DNA from: Pseudobythopirellula maris
GTDB taxonomy: Bacteria > Planctomycetota > Planctomycetia > Pirellulales > Lacipirellulaceae
NCBI RefSeq assembly: GCF_007859945.1
Contig: NZ_SJPQ01000001.1
Span: 1,302,001 to 1,366,000 of the forward strand
DNA length: 64,000 nt
Direction of reading: 5' to 3'
A program made the translations under genes and the position numbers. Below, piece by piece: positions 1,165 through 43,999 of the stretch (within the stretch, counting starts at the first letter, position 1; the number at the start of each line of letters is the position of its first letter). The notes beneath the pieces were generated by a model that saw only the letters and a list, made by a program, of their open reading frames with translations, was not told where the DNA came from and did no database searches.

Positions 1165-1664
1165 ATTGGAATCGTTGGGTGGCGGTGAGATAAAGCCCTG
1201 CGTCATCGGCCACGATCGTCGGGGCAGCGAGCTGCTTAGAGCGGTTTTCGAATTGGTGTGGACGAGGGGGGAAGCGATTGTCGGCGTGGCGAGGAAGCCG
1301 AAGCAGGCAATGCGGTGCATTGTCGATGCAGGCTGACGAAGCCATGACGCCGATCGCGAGCCGAGCGTCTACACCAATGAGCAAACCGCTCTAGCCGACG
1401 ACGTGTGCATTGTCTTGGCAAGCACAGCCGAACGACTCGATGACCGGCAGCGCCGATCGAGTCTTCGATGGTGATCGAAGGCCCTCTCACCCTAAACCCC
1501 ATACCTCGACTGCAGTCGAGAAGTTCAGACCCGCTCGCTAAGGGCCAGCCGCCCCGCAACCGCGACGATTTGACGCCCGGTTTGGGCGTCCGCAGTGGGG
1601 CAAATTTTGGTAGGCTGCGCAGCGACGGGGCGCGTCGCCCCGGAGTTGGAAAAGGAGCCCCAAA
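1165..1664. other. intergenic region between transporter and pckA
   Basis: No convincing gene. It contains MITE-like copy 1 (1237-1393). The remaining 270 bp before pckA should hold its promoter, but I see no clear -35/-10 pair. A GGAG ribosome-binding site lies at about 1652-1655. Confidence 0.6.
1237..1393 (+). mobile_element. MITE-like element, copy 1 (157 bp)
   Basis: It starts with TAGAGCGGTT and ends with AACCGCTCTA. The terminal inverted repeats extend imperfectly to about 28-30 bp (the inner part reads ATTGGTGTGGACG on one side and ATTGGTGTAGACG on the other). Copies of exactly the same length occur at 29992-30148 (same orientation) and 37267-37423 (inverted), with only a few substitutions. 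TA at both ends suggests TA target use as in the IS630/Tc1-mariner superfamily. No transposase is encoded, so movement would need one supplied in trans (inference). Confidence 0.85.
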
Positions 1665-29991: not shown

Positions 29992-30148
29992 TAGAGCGGT
30001 ATTCGAATTGGTGTGGACGAGCGGGGAAGCGATTGGCGGCGTGGCGAGGAAGCCGAAGCAGGCAATGCGGTGCATTGTCGATGCAGGCTGACGTAGCCAT
30101 GACGCCGATCGCGAGCCGAGCGTCTACACCAATGAGCAAACCGCTCTA
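29992..30148 (+). mobile_element. MITE-like element, copy 2 (157 bp)
   Basis: Same length and orientation as copy 1, with TAGAGCGGT and ACCGCTCTA type ends. Its last three bases (CTA, read TAG on the minus strand) are the stop codon of the neighbouring HD-domain gene, so insertion probably set that gene's present 3' end. Confidence 0.85.
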
Positions 30149-31477
30149 ACCGACGCGGTCGATCGCCTCGGCCAGCAGCACGGGCAACGAGCGGAGCTCG
30201 CGCATCGGCCCGGCCAGCGAGGGGTGGACAAAGATCCGCACCCGTTTGACGTAGTCGTCGAACTGCTCACGCGCGAGCGTGCGGACCATCGGCGAGATGT
30301 CGCCCAACGCGCGGTAGACCCCCTGCTTCGGGAAGCAGACCTCGACGTTGAACTCCACCTCCAACTCGGCGGGCGGCGCGTCGAAAAGCACCTCGTGCGG
30401 CGCCACGACGCGCGAGAGCGCCTTGCTCGACACGGCGGCGAACTCCTCGGCGCAACGAGCGAGCCAAGCGTAAGGCCGGCGGGCCAGCCGCCCGTACAGC
30501 TGCGGGTCTTCGAAATAGCTGTACTGCGCGAGCCGCTTGTAGAGACGCCTGGAGGGCCCGAACAAGCCGCCCAACAGCTCCGCCGCCGGGCCGTCGCCGG
30601 CCGCCTCGTTCATCATCGCCACAAACGGCGCTTCGTCGGTGCGGAACAAGGCGTCGAGGTCGAGGTTCGCCCGGGTCAGGAAGAACGCCCGCTGCAGCAT
30701 CGCCGTGGCCGACCGCACCGCGTGGTGCCAGTAAACCTCGCTGAACATCACGTAGCGGGCGAACACCATCATCTCGGCGGCGGTCTTGCCCTTGTCGGTG
30801 ATCGCCAAGCCGTCGCCCGCCTCGTTCACGCACAGGCTGCCGATCAGCCGCGAGCGGTCGAAGTTCTGCCCGTACGGCACGCCCGAGTGCAGCGAGTCAC
30901 GCATCAGGTAGTCGACTTTGTCGACGTCGATCGGCCCGGACAAGATCGACCGCAGCAGCCTGCCGGTGCGGTCCGACGGCTTGCCGGAGAGCATCGCCAG
31001 CACGTCGCGGGGCTGCACGCCCCAGTCGTCGCGCAGCGTGTCGGCCACCTCGCCCTCCAGCAAGAAGCTGTTGGCGAACATCTCGTGCTCCGGCACGCCG
31101 GGCAGGCCCATGTCCTCGATCGCGTGGCAAAACGGCCAGTGCCCCAGGTCGTGCAGCAGCGAGGCCACGAGCAGCAGTTCGGCGTCCTCGGGACCCACCA
31201 CGGCCGCAAACCGCTCGTCTCCGGCGAGCTGCCGGAGGTACTCGATCGCAACGTTGTAGACGCCCAGCGAGTGTTCGAAACGGGTGTGCCGTGCGCCCGG
31301 GTAGATGAGGCCCACCAGGCCGAGCTGGCTGATGCTCGCCAGGCGGCGGAACTCGGCCGTGTCGATCAACTGCCGCACACGCGGCGTCACCGGAGCGTCG
31401 ACCCCCGGCGGCAGGCGGACCAAGCCGCCCGTCGAGCCGCTCAGCGAGAGTTCGGGGATGTCGAGGATCGAAGGCAT
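30146..31477 (-). CDS. HD superfamily phosphohydrolase (COG1078 type)
   Basis: 443 aa from the ATG at 31477 (MPSILDIPELSLSG); an upstream extension of 49 residues is low complexity and ignored. HD motif residues are HTRFEHSLGV and LLHDLGHWPFCHAIED, as in dGTPase/SAMHD1-like triphosphohydrolases. Further signatures are VDKVDYLMRDSLHSG and VYWHHAVRSA. Known relatives hydrolyse deoxynucleoside triphosphates or other phosphoesters; the substrate is unknown here. Its TAG stop is provided by the end of MITE copy 2. It is third in a possible minus-strand group after the ACT and zinc-ribbon genes. Confidence 0.88.
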   Translation of the reverse strand: MPSILDIPELSLSGSTGGLVRLPPGVDAPVTPRVRQLIDTAEFRRLASISQLGLVGLIYPGARHTRFEHSLGVYNVAIEYLRQLAGDERFAAVVGPEDAELLLVASLLHDLGHWPFCHAIEDMGLPGVPEHEMFANSFLLEGEVADTLRDDWGVQPRDVLAMLSGKPSDRTGRLLRSILSGPIDVDKVDYLMRDSLHSGVPYGQNFDRSRLIGSLCVNEAGDGLAITDKGKTAAEMMVFARYVMFSEVYWHHAVRSATAMLQRAFFLTRANLDLDALFRTDEAPFVAMMNEAAGDGPAAELLGGLFGPSRRLYKRLAQYSYFEDPQLYGRLARRPYAWLARCAEEFAAVSSKALSRVVAPHEVLFDAPPAELEVEFNVEVCFPKQGVYRALGDISPMVRTLAREQFDDYVKRVRIFVHPSLAGPMRELRSLPVLLAEAIDRVG

Positions 31478-31580
31478 AAAATCCTTTGCAAGCGAGCCGC
31501 AAGCGTCGGCGCCGGAGCGGCGTGGAGAACGCGGCGCGCGAGCCGCTCGGGTCGCTGACGCTTGCGGCTCGCCACGGCTA

Positions 31581-32285
31581 TTAGCCGTCGACAACCAACC
31601 CCGGCACCGCCGGCAACGCGGCAAGCAGCCGCAGGCCGACCGTGGCGACGAAGTAGAGCGCGCAGTTCGAGAAGGCCATCAGCGGCTCGAGGTCGAACGC
31701 CACGACGCCGGCGAACGTGGCCACGCCGACCGCCACCGCGGCCGGCACGAGCATCTGCCAGATCTCCAGTCCCTCGGCCTGCCACTCCGCGCCGCCCAGC
31801 TGGCCGGCGATCGTCATGTAGGCGAGCCACGAAAGGGCGTAGACCGCCCCGCAACCGAAGGACCGCAGCCAGAGCTCGCCGCCGCTGTACGGCTCGAGCT
31901 CGGCGTCTCGCAAGAACTGGTAGCCGGACCAAGCGAGCAACGGGCCCATCACCAACGCCCCGGCGGCGAGCACCGTGGTGCTCTCCTCGAGCAACGTGCT
32001 GCCGCGAAGCAGCAGAGCCGCCAGCACAGCCAGGAGCGCCACGCCCCCGGCGGCGGCCGCCACCACGGGGTTGAACTTGCCGTCCTTCCGCTTGGCGGTC
32101 TTCAGGACCTGCCGCCCCTTGGCGTCGGTCGGGCCGTCGGGCGTCTCGTGGATGACCACGCCCTCGTCGGCCTCGGGGATCGTGATCGGCCCCTTGCACT
32201 TGGGGCACGCCCCTTGCTTGCCGGCGTGCTGGTCCCCCACGGTGAACCGGCTGAAACATTTCGGGCAGGTTACATTGATCGCCAT
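31581..32285 (-). CDS. zinc-ribbon integral membrane protein
   Basis: 234 aa. The N-terminus VTCPKCFSRFTVGDQHAGKQ continues with ACPKC, giving a four-cysteine zinc ribbon of the MJ0042/planctomycete type. A polar linker follows, then four or five transmembrane helices (residues about 75-95, 100-125, 140-165, 180-200, 205-225). Proteins of this design are abundant in Planctomycetes and have no known function. It lies between the ACT-domain and HD-phosphohydrolase genes on the same strand. Confidence 0.75.
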   Translation of the reverse strand: MAINVTCPKCFSRFTVGDQHAGKQGACPKCKGPITIPEADEGVVIHETPDGPTDAKGRQVLKTAKRKDGKFNPVVAAAAGGVALLAVLAALLLRGSTLLEESTTVLAAGALVMGPLLAWSGYQFLRDAELEPYSGGELWLRSFGCGAVYALSWLAYMTIAGQLGGAEWQAEGLEIWQMLVPAAVAVGVATFAGVVAFDLEPLMAFSNCALYFVATVGLRLLAALPAVPGLVVDG

Positions 32286-37266: not shown

Positions 37267-37423
37267 TAGAGCGGTTTGCTCATAGGTGTAGACGCTCGGC
37301 TCGCGATCGGCGTCATGGCTTCGTCAGCCTGCATCGACAATGCACCGCATTGCCTGCTTCGGCTTCCTCGCCACGCCGCCAATCGCTTCCCCGCTCGTCC
37401 ACACCTATTCGAAAACCGCTCTA
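37267..37423 (-). mobile_element. MITE-like element, copy 3 (157 bp, inverted)
   Basis: Reverse orientation relative to copies 1 and 2, same length and ends (TAGAGCGGTTT and AAACCGCTCTA). The flanks read CTAG on both sides, compatible with a duplicated TA inside a CTAG target. Confidence 0.85.
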
Positions 37424-37425
37424 GT

Positions 37426-37497
37426 CGATTGGCGTCTCGGAGGCCCAGCCGATTGGCGTCTCAAGGGCCCAGCCGATTGGCTACTCAAAAGCCCAGA
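37426..37497 (+). repeat. three tandem 24-bp units
   Basis: Units at 37426-37449, 37450-37473 and 37474-37497. Each begins CGATTGGC and ends GCCCAG followed by C or A; the middle varies. The array starts two bases after MITE copy 3. Confidence 0.8.
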
Positions 37498-37555
37498 GTG
37501 GCCTTTGCTCGAGTGAATCGCTCCCGCGCCGCGGGTGACGCGTGTCGCGAAGCGA

Positions 37556-43688: not shown

Positions 43689-43999
43689 GGCTCAGATAGC
43701 ACGGGAGTCGGGGGCTGAGGGCGACCCGGTATCTTAGCCGAGCGGGGCCGGATCGGTAAGCCGCAGGGCGGCCGTATGAGGCCCGAAGGGCCGGCCGTAG
43801 CCAGCCCAGGGCGGCGCCCTGGGTGCGAATCGACATGCAGGCCAAGCCCTGAAAGGGCGTGATAGATAGCCGCAGTGCGCCCTTTCAGGGCTCATGCAAA
43901 TTCATGGCCTGAATTCCCAGGGCGTTGCCCTGGGCTGGCATATCAGCGCCCCTTCGGGGCTGACACCCCGCAAGCGGATTGTAGGTCGCGCTTCTCCGC
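43689..43999. other. 311-bp gap dominated by a long inverted repeat
   Basis: Contains the 180-bp inverted repeat at 43781-43960; the rest shows no gene. Confidence 0.6.
43781..43960. repeat. 180-bp inverted-repeat element with about 80-bp arms
   Basis: Left half: GCCCGAAGGGC, then AGCCAGCCCAGGGC, GCCCTGGG, GCAGGCC and GCCCTGAAAGGGCG. Right half: the complements of the same blocks in reverse order, ending CCCTTCGGGGC. It also contains local hairpins (CCCAGGGC/GCCCTGGG and CCCTGAAAGGG). This is the longest arm length among the window's repeat families. Confidence 0.8.

Follow-up and report, generated by a model that had tools for sequence, protein, structure and literature searches.

A 157-bp MITE-like element of Pseudobythopirellula maris with a candidate structured core that recurs among Planctomycetota

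The window analysed here is a stretch of 64,000 nucleotides (64 kb) from the genome of Pseudobythopirellula maris. It contains three copies of a short repeat, which an earlier note on this DNA had reported to be of equal length and bounded by TA. The alignment agrees: each copy is exactly 157 bp long, all three begin and end with TA, and they align without gaps. The positions of the copies, of their cores and of the ends of copy 1 are the following.

1237 to 1393, plus strand: copy 1, 157 bp from TA to TA; the plus strand is the better-folding, CGAAGCAG strand (from folding of the consensus)
1237 to 1264, plus strand: terminal inverted repeat of copy 1, TTCGAA-type end, 28 bp
1285 to 1347, plus strand: conserved structured core of copy 1, 63 nt, element positions 49-111 (placed by analogy with copy 2)
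1366 to 1393, minus strand: terminal inverted repeat of copy 1, GCTCA-type end, 28 bp
29992 to 30148, plus strand: copy 2, 157 bp (sequence read and alignment)
30040 to 30102, plus strand: conserved structured core of copy 2, row 1 of alignment A3
37267 to 37423, minus strand: copy 3, 157 bp, in the orientation opposite to that of copies 1 and 2 (sequence read and alignment)
37313 to 37375, minus strand: conserved structured core of copy 3 (placed by analogy)

The copies end in imperfect inverted repeats, about 28 bp long where 30 bp had been claimed, with TAGAGCGGTTT....ATTGGTGTNGACG on both sides and single changes. As also described before, the copies lie close behind the stop of a gene, at distances of 72, 11 and 11 nt for copies 1, 2 and 3, respectively, according to our own gene caller (a simple codon score trained on 29 window ORFs). 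On the minus strand, the last three bases of copy 2 form the TAG stop codon of an ORF encoded there (30146-31624). Two other features of the window were recorded in passing. At positions 37424-37500, directly adjoining copy 3, a unit of about 24 bp (cgattggcgtctc.. ggcccag) occurs three times in an imperfect tandem array, and positions 43779-43823 on the minus strand match the Acido-Lenti-1 RNA with 37.5 bits at a gathering score of 37; a table from 2010 gives Acidobacteria and Lentisphaerae as the range of this RNA.

A search of the 5.07-Mb genome with a 35-bp core pattern at up to three mismatches gave 85 matches, while the reversed control pattern gave none. Counted over contigs, 42 of these core copies were on the forward and 43 on the reverse strand. 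At most three ungapped substitutions separate 66 of the 85 copies from the consensus, and this near-identity speaks for a recent burst. The three window copies are thereby confirmed as members of a near-identical family of about 85 copies. With its 157 bp and 85 core copies the family is short and abundant in the manner of MITEs, and by eye it is non-coding: one open frame crosses the element into the flank, and a coding element was rejected by eye from the bases that vary among the copies. In the literature searched, which included few subscription papers, no description of the element family was found.

The surroundings of the 85 copies were assessed with the same gene caller. The copies are intergenic in 82 cases, and the nearest neighbour is a gene 3' end in 60. 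The adjoining gene ends comprise 104 3' ends at a median distance of 69.5 nt and 64 5' ends at 229.5 nt, and the neighbour genes are convergent around 31 copies versus divergent around 11 (p 0.003). Between co-directional genes there was no clear sense preference, with 24 copies in sense and 17 in antisense orientation (p 0.35). The terminal TAG of the element coincides with the stop codon of the neighbour at 22 of the 104 3' ends; 21 of these overlaps have the expected offset and one, in a copy that is 1 bp shorter, is off by one base. Insertion into YTAR at a stop codon keeps the stop intact, and the neighbour gene may be truncated at such shared TAG stops. The hairpin is not followed by a T-run in the copies read, and an intrinsic terminator was rejected on this ground.

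The insertion target was deduced from the 79 copies in which both TA ends are present, the other 6 of the 85 being left out. Immediately to the left of the first TA there is a pyrimidine (C or T) in 79 of 79 copies, and immediately to the right of the last TA a purine (G or A) in 75 of 79, so the target is YTAR. The same holds in other genomes: of the 32 elements retrieved there with intact TA ends, several of them near copies per genome, 30 were located at YTAR. Two copies, L004 and L020, provide direct evidence for insertion with TA duplication, because empty paralogous sites carry a single TA. When the flanks of L004 were joined with a single TA, they aligned without a gap at the junction to four uninterrupted paralogues (L058, L056, L002 and L089; 83-91% identity), and two weaker paralogous stretches (L040 and L053) were found as well. 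The joined flanks of L020 match a duplicated stretch in its own locus with 84% identity over 95 bp. The earlier note's idea of a non-autonomous MITE-like mobile element is thus borne out, the element having no transposase of its own. With MITEs the element shares terminal inverted repeats and a target duplication, with IS5/IS427-type elements the 2-bp TA duplication at YTAR, and with IS630/Tc1-mariner elements the TA duplication.

The flanks of some copies showed features of their own. Copy L063 (G000:C1, about 1476687) lies exactly between the arms of a perfect, terminator-like inverted repeat of 12/12 bp. Insertion into hairpins as a rule was rejected, the mean over 79 copies being 3.37 versus 3.46 for shuffled flanks. 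This genome also has a second interspersed repeat, about 90 bp in length (TACCGCTAGCCGTAGCG...GATTCGCACTAG), at L002, L004, L056, L058 and L089; the copies L002, L004 and L058 are inserted into it. This repeat may be another small mobile family.

BLAST detected relatives of the element in 7 of 59 near genomes, including that of the window. The relatives read are mostly 156-162 bp long and mostly have TAGAGC-type ends; their arms differ in sequence yet stay complementary, and the centre is better conserved. A covariance model built on 14 whole elements (model R1, alignment A2) matched 32 of 396 genomes of the order, in 20 of 144 genera; it scored seven candidates per genome, so that copy numbers are lower bounds. 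A core-only model built on 25 sequences (model R2, alignment A3, core about 63 nt), with 13 candidates scored per genome, matched 39 of 392 genomes of the phylum, in 30 of 267 genera and at least two classes. The weakest R2 matches are uncertain and need care: 4 of the 24 R2 loci read were without the pair of both loop motifs at two or fewer mismatches each, and among the others some motif matches were weak or off the place given by the model. The exact core pattern occurred in 41 stretches of GTDB genomes, the carriers being Botrimarina colliarenosi, Aeoliella straminimaris and three MAGs titled Planctomycetota or Phycisphaerae. The core pattern had no match in viral contigs, nor had the element in plasmids and phages. 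In two distant relatives (L265 and L269) the loop motifs CGAAGCAG and CGATGCAG seem swapped between the loop strands, as if the internal loop were functionally symmetric. In G058, a genome without an R1 match, a 143-bp stretch between two TAGGCTCTGTCTGAAAA-type ends (L293/L297, G058:C2 125735-125877) is perhaps a shorter relative.

The whole element folds as one end-to-end hairpin, in which the core hairpin contains two conserved internal-loop motifs, CGAAGCAG and CGATGCAG. In alignment A2, 93.6% of the cells pair and changes on both sides occur in 37 of 55 pairs; shuffled alignments had a mean of 18.2 such pairs and none of 500 reached 37. The cores of alignment A3 gave 95.1% pairing and both-side changes in 13 of 18 pairs, compared with a mean of 7.5 in the shuffles, none of 500 reaching 13; as a caveat to both comparisons, kin sequences may exceed shuffles even without structure. 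When the partner was slid by 1-3 columns, pairing fell to 18-42% in A2 and A3, bearing in mind that a structure derived from an alignment tends to exceed its slid versions. Several pair types are found per position, which argues against chance covariation. The outer pairs could be kept by a transposase; helices 2-4, where A2 has both-side changes in 12 of 15 pairs, are internal to the ends, as is the core. The compensatory changes point to selection on the fold of the core.

Whether the folded molecule is RNA was approached through strand and G-U pairs. Of 23 elements, taken from 22 genomes, 22 folded better on the CGAAGCAG strand than on its complement; the number was 19 when the core was taken out and 17 when the core was folded by itself. 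DNA parameters likewise gave 22 of 23 for the whole element, and the G-U totals were about equal (72 vs 77), so these results point to a preferred strand and not to RNA as such, and a G-U bias was discarded as proof of RNA. At one pair of the core, 18 of 25 sequences have G-U, which mildly favours RNA. No Rfam family was matched at its gathering score by the whole window, by copy 2 or by the element of G128; the best score for copy 2 was 16.4 bits (E 1.2), for a family with a gathering score of 90.

The transposases of the genome were searched for a possible partner. There were no matches to DDE_3 (PF13358), the IS630 domain looked for, and five matches to DDE_Tnp_1, one of them below the cut-off. 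One of the five, at locus L112, belongs to a broken element of IS5 type whose TAGAGCGTATCTCA ends differ from those of the window subfamily. Among 100 listed of the 117 matches to the window's end pattern in the genome, 98 lie beside a core copy; the other two (C2:333866 and C3:458534) are one-ended remnants, so no autonomous partner with the window's ends was found among those listed. The end pattern was found in no other of the 396 genomes of the order. The earlier note would have seen a structural repeat of another kind if there were neither a transposase with matching ends nor polymorphic sites. For the window subfamily the first part holds as far as searched; the second does not, filled and empty paralogous sites being present in the genome.

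In the wider set of genomes, DUF4096 (IS5-type) transposases were found in 13 of 15 that carry the element and in 5 of 13 further ones (12 with the element, plus G058). The remaining 8 comprise seven carriers and G058, which has no model match. In these genomes the DUF4096/DDE_Tnp_1 elements are bounded by TAGAGC-type ends and located at YTAR. In those with inverted TA ends, the neighbours fit YTAR in 14 of 14 cases on the left and 12 of 14 on the right. The search itself demanded TA, and one element is present among the 14 in several copies; L113 (below the PF01609 cut-off, neighbours G and C) was left out, and with it the counts are 14/15 and 12/15. Target and end type therefore fit IS5-family (IS427-like, DUF4096) elements better than IS630/Tc1, the group name IS427 being applied here by resemblance.

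Closer matches between the ends were found for some lineages. The end of L251 (G229) agrees in 15 of 16 bp with that of an IS5-type element in another family of the order (L215, G040), and the ends of L249 (G049) and L260 (G094) agree in 14 of 16 bp each with IS5-type elements of the same genus (L216 in G122 and L210 in G065, respectively). All three IS5-type partners are in genomes other than that of the element. At up to one mismatch, TAGGCTCTGTCTGAAAA bounds two core elements of 165 bp in G229 and one in G211, both genomes without a DUF4096 match, and also 944-bp transposase-bearing elements in G040. When 14 end groups were compared with IS5-type ends, five gave p<0.01, two p=0.022 and seven were no better than shuffled (p 0.13 to 1.0); the ends of the window subfamily were no better than shuffled (p=0.42). 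The link to IS5 thus looks good for some lineages, and for that of the window it rests on the target, the duplication and the first bases. A scan of 35 transposase loci gave the core motif pair in two chance-like matches only. Of 274 pairs compared between genomes, 250 had a higher identity in the core than in the ends (means 0.72 vs 0.57; shuffled ends 0.43); those elements whose ends were placed by the model and not by TA add some misalignment.

The family, its ends, its target and the TA duplication are observed, and we infer the type of the transposase and its action in trans. We regard it as probable that the repeat is a non-autonomous MITE-like element moved in trans by IS5-family (IS427-like) transposases and carrying a selected folded core, most likely an RNA. 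Such a transposase would recognise the TAGAGC-type ends and insert the element into YTAR, duplicating the TA. Between the ends sits the phylum-wide conserved hairpin core with its putatively selected fold, which most likely works as RNA once transcribed, often from the gene ending just upstream. It could, for example, bind a protein or a nuclease and so keep the element harmless or useful, and it may have been retained while the ends changed as transposases came and went. Our best guess is an RNA site acting after read-through from the upstream gene, although the missing orientation preference weakens it. The core is a candidate RNA and probably is one, single-stranded DNA fitting the strand preference and the G-U totals equally.

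Taken with the end matches, the greater likeness of the cores compared with the ends suggests a single folded core that became joined to IS5-type ends of different kinds. This may have come about by capture of ends; gradual divergence of the ends along with the transposase is an alternative for most lineages. A bolder version, which we consider possible and put forward tentatively, takes the folded core as what is inherited: the element would be a mobile structured RNA, selfish or domesticated, that occurs as a hairpin throughout the phylum and has repeatedly captured the ends of different IS5-type transposons, comparable to a bacterial counterpart of SINEs parasitising several DNA transposons. 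A conserved folded core with differing ends across the phylum is not visible from one window. Bacterial MITEs are usually recognised by their ends, with the inside free to decay, and here, contrary to this picture, the inside is better conserved than the ends. If this holds, the selected unit would be a small folded RNA (or DNA) and the transposon ends its interchangeable vehicles, and the contribution of the inside of a MITE to its success would become testable. Planctomycete genomics would also gain a described repeat family where there are now unexplained hairpins between genes.

An ordinary MITE, a dead IS5-type derivative whose core is alike through recent horizontal spread and whose pairing is a by-product of inverted-repeat ends, would explain the near-identical copies per genome, the TA duplication and the IS5-type ends of some lineages, and pairing of the outer 27 bp is to be expected if one transposase reads both ends. 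This explanation is strained by the covariation well inside the ends (12/15 pairs in helices 2-4 of A2, 13/18 in A3), by the loss of the covarying pairing when the partner is slid by 1-3 columns and by the greater likeness of the core in 250 of 274 pairs, and we think it unlikely. Less likely still is a single-stranded DNA element whose hairpin is extruded at replication forks or after excision, the folded DNA being the substrate of transposition or recombination. REPIN/RAYT systems and attC hairpins are models for such substrates, and the whole-length hairpin, the palindromic ends and the strand preference (22/23 with DNA parameters also) would suit it. However, the TA duplication and the YTAR target point to a DDE enzyme acting on double-stranded DNA, and the copies are evenly distributed between forward (42) and reverse (43) when counted over contigs. 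The IS630/Tc1-mariner assignment made in the earlier note agrees with the TA duplication, but it is very improbable: IS630 was rejected on the lack of PF13358 matches in the genome, and the YTAR preference and GAGC-type ends are common to IS5-type elements. We give the least credence to a host structural repeat (a terminator, nucleoid or mRNA-stability signal) spread by recombination and not by transposition, which would account for the intergenic position (82/85) near gene 3' ends (60/85) but not for precise insertion of two copies into empty paralogous sites with TA duplication, nor for hairpins without a following T-run in the copies read.

We compared the element to known systems. Like the IS427 group of IS5 and its MITEs, for which a Paracoccus table gives mostly 2-bp duplications and one of 4 (PMC3281130), the element has a 2-bp duplication at YTAR, where the IS5-type elements with TAGAGC-type ends are located too; unlike that group it contains no transposase, and the ends of the window subfamily are unmatched beyond GAGC. 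For the core, the one published candidate that we met is the Rhodopirellula-1 motif (Weinberg 2010), a candidate structured RNA from Planctomycetes too, found also in Proteobacteria and given as a cis-regulatory candidate with no Rfam number (PMC2864571). The CIR repeats of alphaproteobacteria likewise have a phylogenetically conserved RNA fold, but this is two-armed with GANTC, and the mobility of CIR is described as unclear (PMC2229807). QMITE1 and QMITE2 of Coxiella, with long palindromic folds, are transcribed as small RNAs, so MITEs can be transcribed in this way; unlike the planctomycete element, QMITE1 is reported there without orthologues elsewhere and there is no phylum-wide core (PMC5896051).

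Among the classical small repeats, RUP of Streptococcus pneumoniae is a 107-bp MITE with a TA target, assigned to IS630-Spn1 by common ends, for which no further structure or function signature is reported there (PMC2229807); the present genome differs in having no IS630 DDE_3. The Correia/NEMIS elements (107 and 155 bp) have an inserted length, judged from empty sites, of 2 bp under the repeat, and their hairpin RNA is linked to RNase III; their extra internal part is an IHF site and not, as in the planctomycete element, a covarying fold (PMC2229807). ERIC, or RU-1, is a 127-bp repeat that is usually intergenic, reaches up to hundreds of copies in Enterobacteriaceae and Vibrionaceae and acts on mRNA (PMC2229807, PMC10969869). 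The likeness to ERIC is one of description, and the present element differs in that its ends vary by lineage while its core is kept across the phylum. By analogy, the planctomycete element might work like the ERIC, RUP and Correia elements.
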